From the NCBI GenBank assembly GCA_003225075.1, contig QIAP01000051.1, positions 1-50,273 of the forward strand: a DNA stretch of 50,273 nucleotides, given 5' to 3'. Shown piece by piece: positions 9,946-32,029 of the stretch. Both the position numbers and the translations under genes were made by a program. The stretch's first letter is position 1. Each line of letters begins with the position of its first letter. The notes under the pieces were generated by a model. It was not told the DNA's origin. It did no database searches and worked only from the letters and a program-made list of their open reading frames with translations. This DNA comes from Acidobacteriota bacterium. Its GTDB lineage: Bacteria > Acidobacteriota > Terriglobia > Terriglobales > Acidobacteriaceae.

Positions 9946-10042
9946 TGGCGGAAGCGTGTGCGAGTCGAACGCACCGGCGACAGGAAACCTGCCGCCCGCC
10001 GGTTTTGAAGACCGGGAGGATCACCGGACCCCATGCGCTTCC
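9946..10042 (-). tRNA. selC: tRNA-Sec (anticodon TCA), selenocysteine tRNA
   Basis: Read on the minus strand, 97 nt from GGAAGCGC to an encoded CCA. The anticodon stem and loop are CCGGT-CTTCAAA-ACCGG, anticodon TCA at 10006-10008. The D loop TCCGGTGA is identical to the one I recall for E. coli selC. A 9-bp variable arm (GGCGGCAGG with CCTGTCGCC around TTT) and the T arm GTGCG-TTCGACT-CGCAC are present. The 8-nt acceptor (GGAAGCGC with ACGCTTCC) has one C-A mismatch at the eighth pair. Length, extended acceptor, long variable arm and TCA anticodon together are diagnostic. It implies UGA recoding by SelB in this organism; selA, selB and selD are not in the window. Confidence 0.93.
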
Positions 10043-20285: not shown

Positions 20286-23159
20286 CTAAAGCACTTGTGT
20301 CGCGCCGGAGGAGAGTAGCGCTAGCGGAAAATGTTTGAACAGGTCGCTAAGATGCAACACGCTGACGCGCCGGGAAGATGCGGCGGTTATTTCTTCTCCG
20401 GTGAGGATGTTGTGCCATTGCTTCGGCGCCTTGCGGGGCAGGACCATGGTGCCGTTTCCCCAAACATCTTCGCCCATGGGCGGCTGCCCCGGCGAAACCA
20501 GTTTCGTAAGAAGCCGCGGTACTGCGATCAGCGCCCAGTTATCTTTAGTGCGTCGTGCGAATATGCAGACGTGGTCGCGGTTGTCTCCGCTCGCCTCAAG
20601 TGGGAGGTAGTCCCCGTGAAGAAACAGGTCGGAATTAGCGGTCCGAAAATTCAAAGATCTTGCAATCACGTGGAGCTTTATTCTGCCATCCTGCCAGTGA
20701 TCCAGTAACTCGCGGAAACATTGTGGAGAACAACGCTGTTTTTTCTTCAGTTCGTCGAGCATCCCCATGCGTTGCGCGAAGTCCACGGGCCCGCGGTTAT
20801 CAGGGTCCACCAGTCGCAAGTCCCAAAGCTCTGATCCCTGATAAAAGTCGGGAATACCAGGGAAGGTGATTTTGATCAGCACCTGCGCTAATCCATTCAA
20901 CGCTCCCCAATAGGCAATATCCTTCTGGAAACGTAGGAAGTCTTTCAGAAACTCATTATTTTTTGACTGCTCGGTTATGGCTTTCACGAAGGCAATGAGG
21001 GCCTTCTCGTGGCTGGCGTTCGGCACCGTCCATTTAGTGTGCACCATGGCCTCGCGAGTCGCCTTAATCATGTAGTCTTGCAGACGTTGACGGAAGGCTG
21101 GAATCTTGTCATCTTGCAGCGGCCAGGCACCGATCATAGTCTGATACAGCAGAATTTCTTCGTTTGGGGTGGGAACCGCCGTCCCATTTGTTACTTGCTT
21201 TTCTCTCTGGTTGAGCCGCCGCCAGCGTTGGAGATGCTTCTCCCATTGCGCAGGGATTTCTGAAAGCACATCGATTCGCACCCGCACATCTTCGGCACGC
21301 TTGGTATCGTGAGTGGAGGTGGCGTTAAGCGTAAAGGGCGACGATTTTTGGCGGTCACGCCCGAGCTCGTGAAATTGCGCCAAGGCGATGCCCGGTGAAT
21401 GTGGATTGCCGCCTACCTCATTCAAAGACACCAAGCGGTTGTATACATAGAGAAGAGAGTCCTCGAACCCCTTCGCCATAATGGGACCGGTAAATTGCTG
21501 CCAGCGCATGACAAACGCCAGCCGGGATTCTCTCTGCTCGGGAAATAGTTGCGGCCCCTGCTGCAGCAGTAGCACTTGCCTTACGAATTGAAAGCAATCG
21601 GAATTCAAATCTGGATTGCGCCCGCGTGCCGCAGCGATAGCCGTTTCTATGTACTGCGCGTCCTGCGGGCTCACGTCGAAACTCCGGATGTAGGTGCGGT
21701 ATACCGGCAGACAAGCGATGGTCTCGACCAGTGCCCGCGCCAAATTGCCGCGTTGCAGCTCGCGAGCGTAACGGTCCTGTTCGGCAAGGCGGCTAAGATG
21801 GCGTCCGAGGGCATTCATCTCGACTGCCAACAGAGTTTGCATGACCTGCTTCTTCTTTTCGTAAACCAGATCTTCGTAAGCGAGTTTCAGGACTGTAAAC
21901 TCGCGGTAGATGCGATCGATCTCTGTGGCATTGCTCTTCTCCACAAAAATGCCGTTCACGATATTGACGAAGTCGTAGCCGGTGGTGCCGTAGACTGGCC
22001 ACTCCGGTGGCAACGATTCGCAATTGCCGAGGATCTTCTCAACTACCACATAAAAAGGTGCGGACTGGTTTTCCGCTGTGCCCGGGAACAGATGATCCTG
22101 CAAACGTTTCAGATAGCCCTTGGGATCGCGCAGCCCATCAATGTGGTCGATGCGTAGGCCGGTGATCAGGCCTTTTTCAGCCAGGCGCAGAATCACTGCG
22201 TGTACGGAGTCGAAGATCACCGGATCCTCCACGCGAATTCCAACGAGGTCCGTAATAGTAAAGAAGCGACGATAGTTGATGGCCTCATTACTGTTTCGCC
22301 AGAAGGCAAGCAGGTACGCCTGGTCGGAAAGTAGCCGGTCGAGGTGAAGAAAACTAGATGGCATTCCTTTCTTGCCATTAAAGATTCGCACGTTCTGGTC
22401 AACAAAGCGCCGCACGTCCGCCGAGGTGGTATACAGTCGCCATAGTCTCTCTTTAATGGCGGAGCGATTGAGTCGTCTTTCGCCCGCTTTTTCGACCAGG
22501 AGCGCGGAACGTTCCGGCAATCGATCCAGTGCGGAAAGAATTCCTTCCAACTCCTGGATCGGCGAGGATGCGTCACCTATTTTTTGCTTTAGTTTGTCCA
22601 GTCGGTGACTAAGGATTTGGCGATAAGGTTTGGCGGCGACCGGCAGCTTAATATCGAAGTATCGGATGTAGAAGCTGCCCTCTTCGAAGACCAGAGTGAG
22701 TTGCTGGTTTTCGAGCGAATTAGCGTACGAATCGCCAAGGAGTGGAAGAAGAATCCGATTGTCCAGAGAGCGGCTTGGAGGGTGCCAGTCAACATCAAAA
22801 TAGGAAGCTGAGGCGGAAGCCGGTCCGTCTTCGAGTAAATCCATCCACCAGGGATTCTCACTACTTGCTGCCATGTGATTGGGCACAATATCAAGCAGTA
22901 GGCCCATTCGGTGGGCCTGAAGCTGTCGAGCAAGGTTCTCAAAGTCCTCTTCGCTGCCGAGTTCCGGATTCAGCTTGGTTGGGTCGGTGATGTCGTAACC
23001 GTGGGTGCTGCCGCGTCGCGCCTGCAGAATGGGAGACGCATATAGATCGGTGATACCAAGATCGTGGAAATACGAAATCAGAGCTCGGGCATCCTCAAAT
23101 CGCATTCCCGAATGAAACTGCAGACGATAGGATGCGACTGGGATTCTGGGCTGGGTCAT
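20286..23159 (-). CDS. treY: Malto-oligosyltrehalose synthase
   Basis: GH13 enzyme that turns the reducing-end alpha-1,4 bond of malto-oligosaccharides into the alpha,alpha-1,1 bond of trehalose. At 957 residues it is at the long end for TreY. Diagnostic blocks: YRLQFHSGMRFEDARALI, YASPILQARRGSTHGYDI, IVPNHMA, GLRIDHIDGLRDPKGYL (nucleophile Asp), EKILG (acid Glu) and STHDTKRAEDVRVRI, then FPGIPDFYQGSELWDL near the C-terminus. Its start abuts the stop of the GH57 gene with no gap. It is the last gene of the trehalose operon, and with TreZ it makes trehalose from glycogen-type glucans. Confidence 0.95.
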   Translation of the reverse strand: MTQPRIPVASYRLQFHSGMRFEDARALISYFHDLGITDLYASPILQARRGSTHGYDITDPTKLNPELGSEEDFENLARQLQAHRMGLLLDIVPNHMAASSENPWWMDLLEDGPASASASYFDVDWHPPSRSLDNRILLPLLGDSYANSLENQQLTLVFEEGSFYIRYFDIKLPVAAKPYRQILSHRLDKLKQKIGDASSPIQELEGILSALDRLPERSALLVEKAGERRLNRSAIKERLWRLYTTSADVRRFVDQNVRIFNGKKGMPSSFLHLDRLLSDQAYLLAFWRNSNEAINYRRFFTITDLVGIRVEDPVIFDSVHAVILRLAEKGLITGLRIDHIDGLRDPKGYLKRLQDHLFPGTAENQSAPFYVVVEKILGNCESLPPEWPVYGTTGYDFVNIVNGIFVEKSNATEIDRIYREFTVLKLAYEDLVYEKKKQVMQTLLAVEMNALGRHLSRLAEQDRYARELQRGNLARALVETIACLPVYRTYIRSFDVSPQDAQYIETAIAAARGRNPDLNSDCFQFVRQVLLLQQGPQLFPEQRESRLAFVMRWQQFTGPIMAKGFEDSLLYVYNRLVSLNEVGGNPHSPGIALAQFHELGRDRQKSSPFTLNATSTHDTKRAEDVRVRIDVLSEIPAQWEKHLQRWRRLNQREKQVTNGTAVPTPNEEILLYQTMIGAWPLQDDKIPAFRQRLQDYMIKATREAMVHTKWTVPNASHEKALIAFVKAITEQSKNNEFLKDFLRFQKDIAYWGALNGLAQVLIKITFPGIPDFYQGSELWDLRLVDPDNRGPVDFAQRMGMLDELKKKQRCSPQCFRELLDHWQDGRIKLHVIARSLNFRTANSDLFLHGDYLPLEASGDNRDHVCIFARRTKDNWALIAVPRLLTKLVSPGQPPMGEDVWGNGTMVLPRKAPKQWHNILTGEEITAASSRRVSVLHLSDLFKHFPLALLSSGATQVL

Positions 23160-25583
23160 CTATTGGACTCGCAGGTGGAGCTTCTCAGCGAGATGGGTAA
23201 AGTGTTCTACCCAGGCACGGGCTGTCTCGTCCCCTTGTTCTGCGCGGGCACGGTTCCGGCTATAGACACCATCCATATTCTGGGCATAGAGGTTCTCCAC
23301 TTGCCAGAAGTTCACCGCGAAAGGCATTGAATGCGCCAGGTTCACTACGTTTTCGAGCTGTTCCAAAGTAGTGAGATCGTCGGGAGACGAACCCAACTCT
23401 TCGGCTTTGCGCTCAGCCCTTTTTCTTAGGACATACTCGAGCGTCGGGGTGTCGAGAGGAATACGCGTGGTGGCCGCTTCTTTAAGCAACCCTTGGATGC
23501 GTTCAATATCCAAGTTCTCTTGTTCGAGCGCCTCCCGAATCTGGCTGTTGAGTGCAAACTCCGCCATGAGATGGAAAATCCGAGGTTGTGGAACTCCCAT
23601 GTCCGCCAGGAAGTGCATCAGTGGTACGTGCTGTTCATAGACCCGCCGGTTGGTGGTCTCGACTTCCTTCAACGTAGATTCAAGGATCATACTGATGATC
23701 CGGTTCTGTTCATCGCGGAAGAGCGACTTCAAAGAGTAAATATTCTTGCCAAAGTCCTTGTCCAACAGACGAATGACTTCCGGGGTGTCGGCCCGAGAGA
23801 AGGCTTCATTCAGCTCCTTTACCACAGCGGAATAGGCCTGCTGATCGGCAAATTCACGCACACCTCCAGTAATACTGTGGCCGCCAAGGTAGAGGACACC
23901 GAAGCCCAGCGTCGATGACTCTCGGGTGATTTCTGAAGTGAACTTGACCCTGCCCAAAGCCAGTTTCATCTTCCCAGCTTCCTGACTCGTATATTCGAGA
24001 CGTTCCGCGGTGTAGCAATAGATGCGGGCCCGCTCGGGGTAGGATTGGAACATTGAACTGATCGCGTAGTGGGCCGCCAACTTGGGTAAATCAACAATCG
24101 CCGGTTTCACGAATTTTTCGTAGATGAGCGCGCCATCGCGATGTTCGGCAACATTGCTCTTGGCCAGCGCCAATTTTTCCAGGAATTCAGGCTCGACCGA
24201 CCCCTCAAAAAGTTCGTTGGCCAGGTGAACGGCGCGGCCTGCATACTGGATTACCTGCACCGTCTCGATGCCGGAAAGTTCATCAAAGAACCAGCCGCAA
24301 CTGGTGTACATGAGCATGGCGTGACGTTGAAGTTCCAAAAGCTTCAATGCAGTGACAATCTCGGATTCGTTAAGAGGGCGAACCGCGTGCTGTTGAAAGA
24401 AACGTGAAACGCTTTCATCCGAGCGGTCGCGAATGACGTTGATGTAATCGTTGCGTGCGGCCCAAGGGTCTTTTAGCAGGGAACGCGCTTTCTCTTCGTA
24501 CTTGGGCGCGAGCGTGTCGCGCAGCCAGTCCAGAGCCTGACGTAATGGGCCGCGCCATTCCTGGTTCCAGCCGGCGTGGCCCCCGGAATTGCAACCGCAG
24601 TTACTCCGCCAGCGTTCAACTCCATGGACACAGCTCCATGAACTGTTTTCAAAAATCTCCGCCTGGTGGGTAGGAGGGTTTTGTTCCAAGAACTCGCCGT
24701 AGTTTGTCAGCTTAGCTAGCTCGTTTTCCTCAATATACTGCACCGCATAGGAAAGGGCCATCTCACCACGATGATGATGATGACCATAGCTCTCGCCGTC
24801 GGTCGCGATGTGCATCAATTGGGGCCAATCTCGTTCTTGGGAAAATCCGCTGACCAGTCGGCTGGCGAACTGTTCGCCGTTGTTGAGCAATCCTTCAAAG
24901 GCGACGGCGCGCGAAATCGGGCCGTCGTAGAAGAAAGCGGCGATTTTTCGCTTGGAGGGCAGGCGCACTTCATAGGCTCTTGTCGGATCAATGCGATCTC
25001 CACTGACATCTTTCCACGAACGGCCGCCAAGGCGGCGAACTCGCGATGCTTGCCGAGGCACCAAAATGGTGAACTTGATGCCATTTGCGGCGAGAATATC
25101 GAGAGTATCCAGATCGACCGCAGTCTCAGGAAGCCACATGCCCTCAGGCTGGCGTCCAAAACGATGTTCGAAATCCCGAATTCCCCACAGCACTTGCGTG
25201 ACCCGGTCAGCGTGGTTGGCCAGCGGCATAATCATGTGGTTGTAGGCTTGGGAAATTGCTGAGCCGTGACCCGAGTACACCTTCGCACTCTTGCGATCGC
25301 CTTCCAGAATGGCCTGGTAAACTTTCGGCGCTTTTTCTTGTAGCCAGGAGATGAGAGTCGGACCGAAATTGAAGCTGATTTTGGAATAGTTGTTGACGAT
25401 CCTGGTGATGCGATTTTCCGAATCCAAAATCCTCGACGCCGCATTAGGCGCGTAACACTCAGCGGTGATCCGCTCGTTCCAGTCGTGATAGGGGTACGCG
25501 GAATCCTGAAACTCCACCGACTCAAGGGACGGGTTCTCCCGCGGCGGTTGATAAAAATGACCGTGAATACACAGGTAGTTCAT
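23160..25583 (-). CDS. GH57/DUF3536 glycoside hydrolase-like protein
   Basis: 807-residue protein in the operon of treY and treZ. The N-terminal GH57 domain starts MNYLCIHGHFYQPPRENP; the nucleophile block GMWLPETA holds Glu153 and the acid block ATDGESYGHHHHRGE holds Asp262. A large DUF3536-type C-terminal half follows from about 290 (WSCVHGVERWRSNCGCNSGG). Such proteins act on alpha-glucans as amylases or 4-alpha-glucanotransferases; this member's reaction is not established. It probably trims or shapes glucans for TreY. The ATG at 25583 is preferred because GGAG lies 8 nt upstream; a GTG at 25595 is possible. Confidence 0.87.
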   Translation of the reverse strand: MNYLCIHGHFYQPPRENPSLESVEFQDSAYPYHDWNERITAECYAPNAASRILDSENRITRIVNNYSKISFNFGPTLISWLQEKAPKVYQAILEGDRKSAKVYSGHGSAISQAYNHMIMPLANHADRVTQVLWGIRDFEHRFGRQPEGMWLPETAVDLDTLDILAANGIKFTILVPRQASRVRRLGGRSWKDVSGDRIDPTRAYEVRLPSKRKIAAFFYDGPISRAVAFEGLLNNGEQFASRLVSGFSQERDWPQLMHIATDGESYGHHHHRGEMALSYAVQYIEENELAKLTNYGEFLEQNPPTHQAEIFENSSWSCVHGVERWRSNCGCNSGGHAGWNQEWRGPLRQALDWLRDTLAPKYEEKARSLLKDPWAARNDYINVIRDRSDESVSRFFQQHAVRPLNESEIVTALKLLELQRHAMLMYTSCGWFFDELSGIETVQVIQYAGRAVHLANELFEGSVEPEFLEKLALAKSNVAEHRDGALIYEKFVKPAIVDLPKLAAHYAISSMFQSYPERARIYCYTAERLEYTSQEAGKMKLALGRVKFTSEITRESSTLGFGVLYLGGHSITGGVREFADQQAYSAVVKELNEAFSRADTPEVIRLLDKDFGKNIYSLKSLFRDEQNRIISMILESTLKEVETTNRRVYEQHVPLMHFLADMGVPQPRIFHLMAEFALNSQIREALEQENLDIERIQGLLKEAATTRIPLDTPTLEYVLRKRAERKAEELGSSPDDLTTLEQLENVVNLAHSMPFAVNFWQVENLYAQNMDGVYSRNRARAEQGDETARAWVEHFTHLAEKLHLRVQ

Positions 25584-25599
25584 AATGTTCTCCACGGGC

Positions 25600-27501
25600 C
25601 TACACTCGGGCGAAGACGCAGAAGGATTTCGGCCGTATCCTGAGCTCTGCCGCGTCTTTTGAGTTCAACGTCTGGGGAAGGGTTGCGCCGTTGCCGCCCC
25701 AGCGCTGGTCCGAGGAATCCAGAAAGTTCTGCCACTTTCCACCCGGTATCGGGACGCTGGGCGAAACGTCTGCGTCACTCAGATTGAAAACCATGAACAC
25801 CCGCGAGGTCTCACTCCATCGAGTGAGGCAGAATAATTTTTCTTTTTCGAACGCCTTAACTTCCATCTGCTCTTTATTCAGGTTCCGAAGAGCTGGAATG
25901 GAACGCCGTAATCGGATCAACTCGCGATAAAAATCCCGTAGATTCCGGTGCGGCTCACAGTGAGCCAGGTCATGGTTCAGCTTTGACCTTGCGAACGTGG
26001 CTTCATCTTGAGGGTCGGGGGGCTCCTGCTGCCACCCGAATGTCGCGAACCCTTCCTTCCGGCCTCGGCGGACAGCTTGAATCAAGTCCAAATCTGAATG
26101 ACTCGTGAAATACAGAAACGGGGCCGTTTCCCCATACTCTTCCCCCATGAAAAGGAGTGGAACGAACGGTGACAAGAGCACCAATCCAGCCGCCAACTTC
26201 GTGGCTTCGAACGAGACAAGCGTGGAAAGTCGCTCGCCCAAGATGCGGTTGCCTACCTGGTCGTGGTTCTGGGAAAACACCACAAATTTGTCAGCCGGAA
26301 TTTCGCGGGATGAATTGCCATGACGGCGCTGTCGAAATTCGGAGAACTGTCCGGAGTAGATATAACCTTCCTTGAACGCCTTCTCGAGATCATGCATGTT
26401 GCCAAAATCCTGGTAGTAACCACTGCATTCGGCGGTGAGCAACCTATGCACAGCGTGATGGAAGTCATCATTCCACTGGGCGTCCAACCCGTAACCGTGA
26501 AGGTGGTGTGGCAACACGAAACGAACGTCATTCAGATCGCTTTCCGCAATGAGAAATATTTTTCGTCCGGCTTGGCGAGCAAATTGTTGGACCGCAGAAG
26601 CGAGTAATTGCAGAAAAGGCTGGGCATTGCGGTCCACAATCCCATGTATCGCGTCGAGCCGAAGGGCGTCTATGTGGAACTCGTCAATCCAGTAAAGAGC
26701 ACTTTCCGTAAAGAAGCGCACTACGCCATCGCTCTGTTGCCCATCAAAGTTGATGGCTTGACCCCAGGGCGTGCGATACGCGTCCGTGAAATACGGACCG
26801 AAATCCGCCAAGTAGTTGCCTTCCGGCCCGAGATGGTTGTAGACCACATCCATCACGACTGCCATTCCTCGTTGGTGACAAGCATCAACTAACCGCTTCA
26901 ACCCTTCCGGCCCGCCGTAGCTGTTCTGCACGGCAAAGGGATACACGCCGTCGTAACCCCAGTTTCGATTGCCGGGAAATTGAGCCACCGGCATCAACTC
27001 GATCGCTGTGATGCCCACATCTTTGAGTCCATCCAGCCGGGGCACGATGGAGTCGAACGTTCCTTCTGGCATAAACGTCCCGACGTGCAGCTCATACATC
27101 ACATAATCGTCAAGCGCCAACCCCGACCAGTCGCCATCCCTCCAGCGAAATACCGATTGCCCGGTTATCTGAGATGGTCCATGTACGCCTTGCGGTTGGT
27201 ACTTTGAAGCGGGATCAGGTCGTTCCTTTTCACTATTCAGCCGAAACACATACTGGGAACCGGGCTCAACGTTTTCAACCAACGCGTAGAAATAGCCTCG
27301 GCCAGCCTGGTTCATGGGAATGAAACGGTTGCCCAAGCTCACGAATCTGAGTTCAACCTGCTTGGCAGTAGGAGCCCAAACCAGGAACTGACATCGGCCG
27401 TCCCCAAGATACCTGGCACCCAGGTGCTGCGGGATAGGATCATTTTGGGAGCTTCCGGCCGAACCGCTTTCGGAGTCGAGAATTTCGCATCGCTGGGCCA
27501 T
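25600..27501 (-). CDS. treZ: Malto-oligosyltrehalose trehalohydrolase
   Basis: GH13 enzyme that releases free trehalose from maltooligosyl trehalose made by TreY. In 633 residues: an N-terminal CBM48-like domain (YLGDGRCQFLVWAPTAKQVE), then the catalytic barrel with GYDGVYPFAVQNSYGG, VVMDVVYNHLGPEGNYL, the nucleophile Asp283 in ALRLDAIHGIVD, the acid Glu320 in FLIAESDLND, and VVFSQNHDQVGNRILGERL. Four nt separate it from the treT stop, so translation is probably coupled; I see no good binding site of its own. Confidence 0.95.
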   Translation of the reverse strand: MAQRCEILDSESGSAGSSQNDPIPQHLGARYLGDGRCQFLVWAPTAKQVELRFVSLGNRFIPMNQAGRGYFYALVENVEPGSQYVFRLNSEKERPDPASKYQPQGVHGPSQITGQSVFRWRDGDWSGLALDDYVMYELHVGTFMPEGTFDSIVPRLDGLKDVGITAIELMPVAQFPGNRNWGYDGVYPFAVQNSYGGPEGLKRLVDACHQRGMAVVMDVVYNHLGPEGNYLADFGPYFTDAYRTPWGQAINFDGQQSDGVVRFFTESALYWIDEFHIDALRLDAIHGIVDRNAQPFLQLLASAVQQFARQAGRKIFLIAESDLNDVRFVLPHHLHGYGLDAQWNDDFHHAVHRLLTAECSGYYQDFGNMHDLEKAFKEGYIYSGQFSEFRQRRHGNSSREIPADKFVVFSQNHDQVGNRILGERLSTLVSFEATKLAAGLVLLSPFVPLLFMGEEYGETAPFLYFTSHSDLDLIQAVRRGRKEGFATFGWQQEPPDPQDEATFARSKLNHDLAHCEPHRNLRDFYRELIRLRRSIPALRNLNKEQMEVKAFEKEKLFCLTRWSETSRVFMVFNLSDADVSPSVPIPGGKWQNFLDSSDQRWGGNGATLPQTLNSKDAAELRIRPKSFCVFARV

Positions 27502-27505
27502 GAGC

Positions 27506-28897
27506 TTAGGCTAAACCAAGCAAAATGCGGAATAGCAGTACCCAGCGCCGAACGTTGGTGGTCATCAACAGATTTTCCTTCACATGCTCGTGGCCGTTCT
27601 TACCAAGTTGCTTGGCGAATTCTGGATGGGTGAGCAGATATCGAATCTGATAAGCACAGCCTTCCACCGAGTGCACGAGGACGCCGGTCAGCTTATGAAT
27701 TACCTGAGTTGGAATCCCACCGACGGCGCCCGCGATCGTCGGCTTAGACTTCCATAATGCCTCAGTCACTGTCAGCCCGAAGCCTTCTTTAAGTGATTTT
27801 TGCACGATGAGGGTCGAAGCGCGTTGCAGCGCGTTGATTTCGAGGGCTGACCAGGGTGGCAGCTCAAGAAGAATGATGTCGGGATCGTCCCCTGCTGCTT
27901 CCTGCACTTCTTTCAGAACGACAGCGCCTTCAGGATCGTCACTTGCGCCGCCACCAGCCAGGACCAGTTGGCAGTCAACGTAGTTCCGCGCCATCTTGTA
28001 AGCCTGAACAACTCCGACTGGATCTTTGAGACGATCGAAACGCGAAATCTGTGTGACGATCGGACGCGAACGGTCAACGCCAAAATCATCGCAAACCTTC
28101 TGGATGTAGCTCTCATCCAGTTCCTTATTCTTTTCCGAGAGCGGATCGATACAGGGATAGAACAGATATTGCGGAATGGCGAGCTGGCGGGCAAATTTTG
28201 GCGAGGAAAAAATCGCCGCATCATACTGATCGATCATCGGCCGCAAGAAACCCCATACCCCGGGATTAGGATTCGATAGGTCAATGTGGCAACGCCACAC
28301 CCATTTCCCGGGATGATCCTTCTTTGAAGAAACCAGCGCCGCGGGCTGGGGATCGTGGATCACGATGACATCTTCTTCAAATGCCATCCGCTGGCGGTTC
28401 TGCTCATTGGTTGCCAGGAAGGCTTCCTGAGCCTGGCGGGAGAGCTCGTAGCTTCCTCCGTGCAGCGCATTGTGAAAGGCCTTAGTGATCTCGAAGAAAT
28501 CATTGCCACCGGTAATTACGTCCCAATGGGTGGTGACGTCGAGCTCGGCCATTAACGGTACCAGGCGATTTAGCATTTCGGCGACCCCGCCGCCTACCGC
28601 GGTGGAGTTCACCATCTTTACTGACTTGCCCTTCAGGACCGTTGCCAGAAAGCGGAGTTCGTCAAGCTCGGGCTTGCCGATGATTGGCTCATAGTCGTCC
28701 AGCCGGGGAGGAGGAGGCGCCATCGGAGGCGTATCTGAAATGCGCGGTTGTTTGCGCCGTTCGCGCTTCGGTACTGCCGTGGCTGGTTCCGGCCCAACAG
28801 AGACAGTTGATGATCCGCCTACGCCGTTATGTTCGGCACTCGGGGAGGCTGTTTCGGCTACAGAACTAATATTTCCGGAATTTTGAGTCTCGCTCAT
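27506..28897 (-). CDS. treT: Trehalose glycosyltransferring synthase (GT4)
   Basis: GT4 retaining glycosyltransferase resembling TreT, which reversibly makes trehalose from NDP-glucose and glucose. In 463 residues, a low-complexity N-terminus of about 65 residues (Pro/Ser/Glu-rich) precedes the TreT-like segment DDYEPIIGKPELDELR, KMVNSTAVGGGVAEMLNRL (donor-loop glycines) and AFHNALHGG. The C-terminal nucleotide-sugar half has QISRFDRLKDPVGV, LVLAGGGASDDPEG and SLKEGFGLTVTEALW with the family Glu residues. AAGGTAGGG precedes the ATG. It lies between the DUF5752-like gene and treZ, giving a third trehalose route in one operon. A different glucosyl acceptor cannot be excluded. Confidence 0.88.
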   Translation of the reverse strand: MSETQNSGNISSVAETASPSAEHNGVGGSSTVSVGPEPATAVPKRERRKQPRISDTPPMAPPPPRLDDYEPIIGKPELDELRFLATVLKGKSVKMVNSTAVGGGVAEMLNRLVPLMAELDVTTHWDVITGGNDFFEITKAFHNALHGGSYELSRQAQEAFLATNEQNRQRMAFEEDVIVIHDPQPAALVSSKKDHPGKWVWRCHIDLSNPNPGVWGFLRPMIDQYDAAIFSSPKFARQLAIPQYLFYPCIDPLSEKNKELDESYIQKVCDDFGVDRSRPIVTQISRFDRLKDPVGVVQAYKMARNYVDCQLVLAGGGASDDPEGAVVLKEVQEAAGDDPDIILLELPPWSALEINALQRASTLIVQKSLKEGFGLTVTEALWKSKPTIAGAVGGIPTQVIHKLTGVLVHSVEGCAYQIRYLLTHPEFAKQLGKNGHEHVKENLLMTTNVRRWVLLFRILLGLA

Positions 28898-28916: not shown

Positions 28917-29600
28917 TCATGCCCTCGCACTGCTGAGCATGCGAATCAATTGGTTTCGCACGTCCTCGAGGGTCAGCGTATAGATATCAATGCGATTGAG
29001 GCTGGCGGCGGCTTGACGTAATCCAAGCTCCTTTTCCAGCCAGGCAGAAAAATCGTTTGACGCCAATTTCAACCGTAATCTCGCCTCAATAAAGTGGTGG
29101 TGGATGGAATGAATGCTCACTCGTTTGAGAGCTTCAATGAATTCCCGAAGATTTTGAGCCTTAAATGGGGTGGGAATCACTACGCTTTCAGAAGCACAGA
29201 AATAGAAGGGCTCAAGCGCTGCGCGATCGCGCGAAAGTGGATTCCACTTCAAATAATCTTCCACGATCCTGATGATTTGTTCGCGTAATGAAGCGAGCGA
29301 AGTAAAAGTGCGAACATCAATGGCCGCCAACCGCTCGGCCAAGCCCGCCTCATTGCACTCCGTGTAGGCCCAATGGGCAAAGTCATTCGAGAAGCCTTCC
29401 CGGATGTAGTGGTGCTCTTGGAGCGTCTGGAACGTATGCTGGAATATGGACTCATCCGGGCAGGAGCGCAAAGCGTCAAGCAATTCTCCAAGACTATCCG
29501 CACGCTCTCGTTCAATACGCAGCAAATGCGAGGAGGAGTTGAAATGAAATGGGGATGGCGCCGCACGGGTGAACACGTCAGGGGTGGCCGAAGAAATCAT
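28917..29600 (-). CDS. DUF5752-like protein in the trehalose operon
   Basis: 227-residue soluble protein, mostly helical, with PFHFNSSSHLLRIERERADS, a central EHHYIREGFSNDFAHWAY block and a C-terminal IHSIHHHFIEARLRLKL plus NDFSAWLEKELGLR. It matches my recollection of DUF5752, a family found beside trehalose and glucan genes in several phyla. His and Asp residues recur, but no catalytic pattern is clear. GAGGT lies just upstream of the ATG. It follows the otsA fusion after 140 bp and precedes treT by 19 bp. A role as a small regulator or scaffold of the pathway is inference only. Confidence 0.7.
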   Translation of the reverse strand: MISSATPDVFTRAAPSPFHFNSSSHLLRIERERADSLGELLDALRSCPDESIFQHTFQTLQEHHYIREGFSNDFAHWAYTECNEAGLAERLAAIDVRTFTSLASLREQIIRIVEDYLKWNPLSRDRAALEPFYFCASESVVIPTPFKAQNLREFIEALKRVSIHSIHHHFIEARLRLKLASNDFSAWLEKELGLRQAAASLNRIDIYTLTLEDVRNQLIRMLSSARA

Positions 29601-29740: not shown

Positions 29741-32029
29741 TCAGATGGCTGACGCAACCCGATTTCCGTTTGCCTCGGAATGACCCGGCTTTTCGACGCG
29801 AATCTCGGAAAGTTCGGTGATCAGATTCCCTGCCCAACGGTAGACGTTATTCTCTTTCACCACTTTACGCATTCGCTGCATGCGGTTTTGCCGGTCATCC
29901 GGTTCCATCTCCAGCGCAAAACGGATTGCGTCCGCTACTTGTTCCACGTCATAGGGATTAACAATCAGCGCATCGCGCAACTCCCGAGCCGCTCCCGTGA
30001 ACTGGCTAAGCACAAGCACTCCCTGCTCATCTTCCCTGGCCGCCAGGAACTCCTTGGCAACCAGGTTCATGCCATCGTGAAGTGACGTCACCATACAAAG
30101 ATCCGCGGTGCGATAGAACCTCTGAATTTCCTTGTGACTATGCTGCCGGTTGAGGAAGATGATGGGTCTCCATTTGCCGGTTTGGAAGCGCCAGTTAATG
30201 CGGTCCGCCTCTGCCTCAACTTCTCCCAAAAGATCGTGGTAACGCTTGATGTGAGTGCGGCTGGGGGCGCCTATCTGGACAAAAGTAAACTTACCCAGGT
30301 AGTCAGGATATTTCTCGAGGAGACGCTCAATGGCCCGGAACCGCTCCTGAATACCTTTTGTATAGTCCACCCGATCAACGCCAACTCCGAGGAAAAGGGT
30401 GTTGACGCCAAGCTCCCGCAACAACGCAGTTTTTTCAGTGTAGATGGACTCTTTGCCCACCCCATCGCCTTGGATTTCATCAAACGCCACACTGATCGGG
30501 AACGGCTTCACGATGGTGCGATGGTCTTCCCGCTCCACCGCGAAATGATCCCAGTCGATGCGCGACTCTAGGGTGCGATCCACCGTCTGCAAAAAATTGT
30601 TGCAATCGGAGTGAATATGGAATCCAACTAAATCCGCTCCGAGCAAGCCATCGACCAATTGACGTTGCCATGGACAGATGCTGAATTTCTCCGGGTTGGC
30701 CCACGGTATGTGCCAAAAAATGGCGATTCTAGCGTCCGGGCGCTTTTTCTTGATCATGCGTGGCAGCAAGGCAAAGTGATAATCCTGGGCCAGCAGGAAG
30801 GGGTGCTCGGTACCCGCCATTTCCTCCAGTACGGCATCGGCAAACTTCTGGTTGACATGCAAATAATGTTCCCAGTCCGAAGCCCGAAAAAGCGGCCGTA
30901 CGTGAGCTACATGGCAAAGTGGCCACAGCCCTTCGTTAGCGAAGCCGAAGTAATATCCTTCCTCTTCTTGCTTGCTTAACCAGACCCGCCGCAAAGTGTA
31001 GCGAGGGTCTTCGGGCGGCACTCGAAGAGAATCGTGCTTATCTACTGTCTCCTGATCGGCATCACCGCTGCCATGCGCAACCCAGGTTCCATCACACGCG
31101 CGCAAAATTGGTTCGAGCGCGGTTACTAGACCGCTGGGAGGCACTACCACCTCAAGGGAGCGGCCGCGTCGCGTGTGCGAGTAGGGCTCGCGGTTGGAGA
31201 CGACAAACAAGCGGCTCTCCGCCAACCGGTTGCGCACGTGAACCGAAAGACGTTCTGCAGTCCAGTTAGATTCCGCCGCATCGCGGAGCTGCGCTTCCTT
31301 CTCCGCAGCCGAGCGCGCTGCCGATAGGCTCCTGGCGAATGTTTCCACCTCTCGGGCAAGGGGACGCAGAAGATCAATATCAGGCACCGCTGCCGTAACC
31401 GAACCTTTGCCCGTTCGCAAGGCTTTCATCCATTGAGCCGCCTTGGCGATGGGACCGACGATGCTCCAACGAACAATCAGCAGGGTAATCGAAGAAATCA
31501 GAAGTACCAGGACCAAATCGCGTAAGAAACTCTCGCGCCAAATCTGGATCGTCTGTGCCTTGATGTAGCTGGCGTCGTGAACAATCGCCAACGCTCCAAC
31601 AATCTGATCTTGCTGATGAAGGGGCCAGGCGTAGATATGAACATAGGAATGATCGAGGTGGACAAACTGACCGCCACCCTGGCCCTTACTGACGGCTTGC
31701 GCCACCACAACCGGCTGATCTGGGAGACGATGGGCAAGCCCCGTGGTTACGGCGATAGGCGCGCCCTTCTGATTGTAAATTGCCACTCCATCCAAATGCT
31801 GCCGGTTGCCGAAGCGCTCGACTATGCGTTGTAGTTCCTTCTGCGATCCCTTGGCGAGGTGAGGTTCGATATTCCCCGCCAGACTTTCGGCTAGGACTTC
31901 CGCGCGCCTCTCCAGATCCCGGGTGAGACCGCGTTTTTCCGATCGCACCTCGTAATAAGAGAATGCGAGCGACACCAGCGTGATGCCCACAATTAACGAA
32001 ATGATCAGGCGAACACTCAGAAGGCGCAC
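29741..32029 (-). CDS. otsA: Membrane-anchored trehalose-6-phosphate synthase with periplasmic sensor and HAMP-like linker
   Basis: 762-residue fusion. N-terminal half: TM1 (about 7-26), a periplasmic domain of about 140 residues ([29 protein letters not shown], reminiscent of single-Cache sensors), TM2 (about 171-190, [15 protein letters not shown]), then a HAMP-like helix and a coiled coil (about 192-260). The catalytic half from about 272 is GT20: [59 protein letters not shown], and [18 protein letters not shown] with [18 protein letters not shown]. These are the OtsA active-site motifs, so UDP-glucose plus glucose-6-phosphate to trehalose-6-phosphate is expected; a glucosylglycerol-phosphate-synthase-like activity is the alternative. 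No otsB is in the window. It heads the operon. Confidence 0.9.

Follow-up and report, generated by a model that had tools for sequence, protein, structure and literature searches.

Can a signal from outside the cell act directly on the synthesis of trehalose-6-phosphate (T6P)? The question is raised by one gene in the window analyzed here, a 50,273-nucleotide stretch of DNA from a member of the Acidobacteriaceae (contig QIAP01000051.1). OtsA, the T6P synthase of family GT20, is normally free (soluble) in the cell, and receptor input modules containing a HAMP segment are known for outputs such as kinases, phosphatases, cyclases, and chemotaxis. A first-pass annotation of the sequence had nevertheless described the two as parts of a single protein. 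We find that the sensor-HAMP-T6P-synthase architecture is real and conserved across phyla. Our preferred reading, to which we give a probability of roughly 0.6 on sequence and predicted structure, is that the protein would be a receptor enzyme, in which a Cache/HAMP signal gates T6P synthesis as a one-component system, without a phosphorelay. The parts of the gene are as follows.

29741..32029, minus strand: whole gene of the Cache-HAMP-GT20 fusion, a single open frame of 762 aa with a GTG start
31955..32023, minus strand: TM1, residues about 3-25, from hydropathy and helix 2-60 of the AlphaFold2 model
31535..31954, minus strand: periplasmic single Cache domain (WalK/sCache_3-like), residues about 26-165, from VIA-align, WalK profile, and sCache_3_2 matches
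31466..31534, minus strand: TM2, residues about 166-188, from hydropathy and helix 154-206 of the model
31322..31465, minus strand: HAMP-like segment, residues about 189-236, aligned to histidine kinase HAMP, with Pfam HAMP sub-threshold
31265..31321, minus strand: helical linker, residues about 237-255, within helix 219-254 of the model
31214..31264, minus strand: junction helix, residues 256-272, with W256 and L261 invariant, from conserved spacing and the starts of non-fused relatives
29807..31213, minus strand: GT20 catalytic domain, residues 273-741, from Pfam, structure match, and active-site residues

In many relatives of the fusion gene, a start codon stands at the corresponding position. 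Hydropathy of the window protein peaks near residues 3-21 and 166-190, leaving a periplasmic domain of ~140 residues between the two helices, and an AlphaFold2 monomer model built from an alignment of 67 rows (mean pLDDT 88.3 for the whole chain) agrees with this layout. TM1 runs into a long Cache helix (2-60), followed by a Cache-type sheet (79-152), TM2 continuing into HAMP AS1 (154-206), a connector, AS2 with the linker (219-254), the junction helix (258-269), and then the GT20 domain. Confidence is low through the HAMP and linker, where the ten-residue means of pLDDT between 191 and 260 are 55-76. The transmembrane pair around a periplasmic domain, and the complete GT20 domain in one intact frame, thus stand as first described.

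The catalytic half is readily recognized. Pfam GT20 (PF00982) covers residues 273-741 (E 7.3e-123, 411.2 bits against a cut-off of 32.5, profile positions 2-472 of 473), and the closest fold for the whole chain is that of M. thermoresistibile OtsA (MtrOtsA) with ADP and glucose-6-phosphate (G6P) (E 2.0e-39). From the donor and acceptor contacts of MtrOtsA named in PMC6879718, 15 positions were mapped by hand through an alignment in which the MtrOtsA chain positions run one ahead of the published numbers, and were compared with E. coli OtsA; the base contacts were omitted, as was Arg365, which is reported there to be less conserved outside mycobacteria. At 14 of these 15 named positions the window protein is identical to MtrOtsA, and at the remaining one it has H418 for Gln146, a histidine also present in E. 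coli OtsA. Twelve of the 15 are invariant across all 67 aligned fusions (R280 is found in 65, H418 in 63, and R591 in 66), and the five G6P-contact positions read R, Y, D, H, R, as they do in E. coli OtsA. The motif FWHIPW at 438-443 occurs in 65 of the 67 fusions, the other two having FWHVPW. The GT20 catalytic residues are shown by this alignment to be intact, and T6P would be the expected product.

The receptor half is less obvious to domain models. Residues 1-267, modelled separately (pLDDT 82.5), gave a Cache fold that VIA-align matches to the crystal structure of the WalK Cache domain (5is1; Z 16.0, 131 aligned residues, rmsd 2.8) and to 4ywz_B (Z 15.9, 136 aligned, rmsd 2.5). A deposited WalK model spanning TM1, Cache, TM2, and HAMP is matched over 254 residues (Z 16.2, rmsd 4.3), and the fusion profile itself retrieves WalK chains in the PDB (E 2.4e-5). 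Predicted fold and hydropathy together place a Cache fold between two transmembrane helices, as in a single Cache sensor, so that the sensor proposed for residues 1-270 is borne out. No Pfam Cache model exceeds its cut-off in the window protein (CHASE8 16.7 bits against 27, dCache_3 14.3 against 25.7, sCache_3_2 13.2 against 28.4). In a scan of 19 N-termini at E 0.1, ten matched SMP_2 (PF10144), nine sCache_3_2, three CHASE8, and two Cache_WalK. Control of the YfiN/YfiR kind, a candidate raised by weak matches to CHASE8 and the NCBIfam model HK_near_YfiR_like, was rejected: CHASE8 is below cut-off, a WalK-type Cache fits better, and no YfiR-like periplasmic partner recurs among the neighbor clusters of 76 loci.

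Kin of this half are found among histidine kinases. Within the phylum, some proteins match only the N-terminal half, and these include sensor histidine kinases, three of which were scanned and have a clear HAMP (E about 4e-14), HisKA, and HATPase_c. In hhalign, the N-terminal 262 columns align with a profile of four such same-phylum proteins at 99.7% (E 1.9e-26), and the alignment runs through TM1, Cache, TM2, and HAMP. Because the profiles align end to end, the input half is shown at the profile level to be homologous to histidine kinase receptors and can be regarded as their receptor module. Neither HisKA nor HATPase_c is found in the window protein itself (Pfam, E 0.1).

The connection between the two halves calls for more caution. 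The HAMP-like helix of the first-pass annotation is upheld by profile alignment, which places a bona fide HAMP of histidine kinases in the same position after TM2, and by the WalK fold match, but not by the Pfam score: HAMP (PF00672) reaches 13.4 bits in the N-terminal piece of the window protein against a cut-off of 25 (E 0.098), and Pfam finds no HAMP at E 0.1 in four proteobacterial isolates scanned. We therefore assign the segment to HAMP by homology, not by score, since the kinases to which it aligns have a clear HAMP and the fold matches WalK. In the 67-row alignment, the proteobacterial branch has a four-residue gap in AS1 and a seven-residue gap after AS2, and by this measure its HAMP is the more eroded. 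The coiled coil that had also been proposed is only plausible from the sequence; helix 219-254 is predicted, but hydrophobic residues recur in the linker with marginal periodicity, equalled in strength by 110, 145, and 151 of 2000 shuffles in the three length classes. Between P222 and W256 there are 33 residues in 35 of the 67 rows, 26 in 25, 34 in six, and 32 in one. The two main lengths differ by seven residues and look heptad-quantized; this is weak evidence, because the spacing classes follow clades, and the difference may represent one event.

At the junction the pattern is more uniform. W256 is invariant (67/67 fusions), and 22 residues separate it from N279 in 64 of the 67. In four of 15 non-fused relatives (L062, L161, L162, and L170), a start codon immediately precedes the junction tryptophan. 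That these four enzymes begin at this residue suggests that the receptor was plugged onto the enzyme's own first helix, which could be the place where a helical signal acts. Large movements of OtsA helix alpha-1 during catalysis are described in PMC6879718.

On our preferred reading, the periplasmic single Cache would sense a ligand or the state of the envelope, and TM1/TM2 and the HAMP-like segment would relay a conformational change by way of the short helical linker to the junction helix. That helix, at the start of the GT20 domain, would shift the enzyme between less and more active states, such that NDP-glucose and G6P would be converted to T6P only upon the outside signal. We infer dimerization, the gating itself, and the direction of control; the signal would most likely be osmotic or desiccation-related. 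Counting against this reading are the weak or absent Pfam HAMP, the low model confidence and marginal periodicity of the linker, two relatives with a transmembrane peak and no Cache domain, the saturated dS in the window's sensor comparisons, and, as described below, the lack of a recognizable OtsB in the window genome and the score under the OtsA equivalog cut-off.

A fusion seen once could be an accident, but this one recurs across genomes. Within the phylum, 117 of 297 genomes have some match to the protein, which in many cases is a canonical OtsA or involves the sensor half alone. Near full-length matches, counted where a single alignment begins no later than residue 10 and reaches at least residue 719, occur in 29 of the 297, the window's own genome included. 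Across phyla, the best 80 named loci among the matches listed were taken as the sample; in 72 of these, TM1 and TM2 are present at the spacing of the window protein, and these 72 span at least 15 named phyla, with five further entries unranked. Of the remaining eight, one has a shortened sensor (L080), two have a transmembrane peak without a Cache domain (L102 and L152), and five are interrupted by a contig end or a frame break. These counts rule out a fused unrelated ORF, whether by chance or by misassembly. In the two sensor-less loci (L102:5953-7791 and L152:5875-7689, both plus strand), transmembrane peaks precede the GT20 domain and no periplasmic sensor is seen; an assembly frame break is possible there. 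Most fusion records are metagenome-assembled genomes, for which binning error is possible, and four are named strains not marked as such: Paucimonas lemoignei DSM 7445, Janthinobacterium sp. LM6, Noviherbaspirillum aridicola NCCP-691, and Magnetospirillum moscoviense BB-1. Since members occur in named strains, the class is testable at the bench.

Pairwise identity averages 24% in the periplasmic part and 26% in the HAMP, compared with 62% and 50% in the two halves of GT20, a pattern to be expected if a single enzyme is placed under different sensors. For the sensor, dN/dS is below 1 (0.02-0.60) in eight of 13 pairs, of which two have a dS slightly over 2; among the remaining five, which include all three window pairs, dS is saturated. 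By these ratios the sensor was under purifying selection in the eight measurable pairs, the window's own lying outside them.

These observations bear on the strongest alternative, that the receptor-derived half has lost its signalling role and serves as a tether that holds T6P synthase to the inner membrane, close to OtsB, to channels, or to sugar uptake. The weakness or absence of HAMP in Pfam would fit a tether, as would the two loci in which a membrane segment persists without a sensor, and three related GT20s attached to a Na+/H+ exchanger-like domain (L066, L068, and L069) also look tethered. However, a plain anchor would need neither a folded periplasmic domain of 140 residues nor a fixed junction spacing, and the periplasmic region bounded by transmembrane helices is kept in 72 of the best 80 loci and under purifying selection in the eight measurable pairs. 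We regard a tether without signalling as unlikely, if still worth serious consideration. The three exchanger-linked proteins (L066:6504-10055, L068:6792-10430, and L069:6353-9085, all minus strand) carry GT20 C-terminal to PF00999, which is matched at E about 4e-20 to 4e-21, and their GT20s fall outside the fusion clades. A similar long protein, L067, groups with them in the tree and has no exchanger match at E 0.01.

What the T6P would be used for is suggested in part by the neighboring genes. In the window, the fusion is followed by a row of five genes.

28917..29600, minus strand: DUF5752 protein of 227 aa, the next gene downstream (PF19027, 4.9e-62)
27506..28897, minus strand: TreT-type trehalose synthase (PF21269, 1.4e-55)
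25600..27501, minus strand: TreZ (TIGR02402, 746.5 bits, cut-off 538.8)
23160..25595, minus strand: GH57 with DUF3536 (PF12055, 8.3e-125; PF03065, 7.9e-23)
20286..23159, minus strand: TreY (TIGR02401, 947.7 bits, cut-off 498.65)

BLAST clustering of genes within 4.5 kb of the fusion in 76 loci (fusions of at least 590 aa) finds trehalose phosphatase, OtsB, in at least 49, GH15 in at least 22, and TreT and DUF5752 in at least 20 each; these are lower bounds, as some loci are short and overlapping frames were dropped. Besides the trehalose and GH15/GH13 genes, three clusters recur in four loci each, and one member scanned from each was an ABC ATPase, a ROK kinase, and a MarR regulator. A search of one open library listed no paper on DUF5752, judging by titles and the starts of abstracts. 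In two of the 22 ORFs with DUF5752 as best match, it is fused to an MscS-type channel: L083:8762-10153 and L098:2590-3996 (both plus strand) have 4-5 transmembrane peaks, a PF00924 beta-domain, and DUF5752, and lie between OtsB and TreT. These fusions tie the gene row to turgor, circumstantially, and give some support to an osmotic context for the fusion. The osmotic guess of the first-pass annotation thus gains operon partners in its favor (OtsB, trehalose synthases, DUF5752-MscS), but the first-pass interpretation is weakened by the lack of a recognizable OtsB in the window genome and by the HAMP, which is under the Pfam cut-off here and absent from the scans of four proteobacterial members. 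A fusion of DUF5752 to TreT, suggested by length in L033, was not borne out by Pfam; the 606-aa TreT there (L033:7403-9223, minus strand) has an N-terminal extension of ~180 residues that matches no Pfam model at E 0.01. Elsewhere in the window, ARAGORN identifies a selenocysteine tRNA (9946-10042, minus strand).

The missing phosphatase deserves attention, as the window genome (G000) is 97.6% complete in 259 contigs, and encodes one GT20. No trehalose-phosphatase domain (PF02358) is found in it or in three other fusion-bearing genomes (G084, G121, and G261), and a relative's OtsB used as query, a search that had no positive control, found no match in the window genome. In all, OtsB is present in 27 of 32 fusion-bearing genomes and was not found in five, these four and G136, which is 67% complete. 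Since OtsB accompanies the fusion in most genomes and often lies near it, T6P would usually be a precursor of trehalose.

In the OtsB-less lineages, T6P could instead be a signalling metabolite that acts on other proteins, with bulk trehalose supplied by TreT and TreYZ. TreT, TreZ, and TreY do stand in the fusion's gene row, and TreT occurs in three of the OtsB-less genomes, G000, G121, and G261, but not in G084 (nine of 29 genomes searched have it). The same four genomes have no GH65 and nothing over the cut-off for TreC, and T6P level is reported to control morphology in Arthrobacter (PMC5685639). Against this, OtsB is the rule among fusion genomes, a GH13 of the window genome scores 437.6 bits to the TreC model, under its cut-off, and T6P could be dephosphorylated by two HAD-IIB hydrolases of this genome, which score over cut-off and are both truncated at contig ends. 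PF09506 (salt-tolerance phosphatase), considered as an OtsB substitute, gave no match, and the control genomes gave none either. A purely signalling role for T6P here is, on balance, improbable. Hardly easier to credit is a broader conjecture, which we offer as a speculation: that the fusions form a widespread, hitherto undescribed class of receptor enzymes whose envelope sensor gates sugar-phosphate synthesis directly, and that in lineages that have lost OtsB, T6P might be a second messenger released on an external cue, beside a DUF5752/MscS-linked TreT as an osmotic response module.

The identity of the product is also touched by the family models. The window protein misses the cut-off of the OtsA equivalog TIGR02400 (437.8 bits against 564.85), as do two isolate members (427.4 and 416.7 bits), and it misses that of GgpS, TIGR02398 (324.6 against 569). 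In a 73-row tree, nine canonical OtsAs fall outside the clade formed by the fusions and their near relatives (support 100), and the fusion label changes five times, or three without the two sensor-less rows; these are loose counts from a quick tree with long branches. That the enzyme uses another acceptor, such as glycerol-3-phosphate in the manner of GgpS, would be in keeping with the sub-threshold score, the separate clade, and the lack of OtsB in the window genome, but is very improbable, given that the OtsA model outscores GgpS, that the five G6P-contact positions, in a comparison covering OtsAs, are those of E. coli OtsA, and that trehalose-phosphatase genes lie nearby in at least 49 of 76 loci.

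The receptor enzyme that we favor can be set beside several known systems. With OtsA it shares the fold, the active-site residues, and, in its relatives, the linkage to OtsB; it differs in its 270-residue N-terminal membrane receptor, its distinct GT20 clade, and its score under the TIGR02400 cut-off. With WalK and related Cache-HAMP sensor histidine kinases it shares, by profile and predicted fold, the TM1-Cache-TM2-HAMP input half, but it lacks HisKA and HATPase_c, its HAMP is under the Pfam cut-off, and its output would be a metabolic glycosyltransferase. In HAMP-linked transmembrane adenylate and diguanylate cyclases, receptor input is joined directly to an enzyme with no phosphorelay, and the outputs are second messengers; the fusion would work alike, but would make the precursor of a compatible solute. 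Arthrobacter OtsA, described as an osmotic stress sensor by way of T6P level and self-assembly, likewise ties T6P synthase to osmotic sensing, and its abstract, unlike the protein described here, mentions no receptor domain (PMC5685639). The search of one open library, judged by titles and the starts of abstracts, listed no description of a HAMP- or membrane-fused T6P synthase. A HAMP-type receptor joined to an enzyme is a known kind of protein, and T6P synthase as its output would seem to be the new element. If the preferred reading is true, bacteria could regulate osmolyte synthesis after translation, on an external cue and with neither a phosphorelay nor transcription. That the fusion recurs in many phyla suggests that production of a stress-protecting sugar may be under such direct external control.
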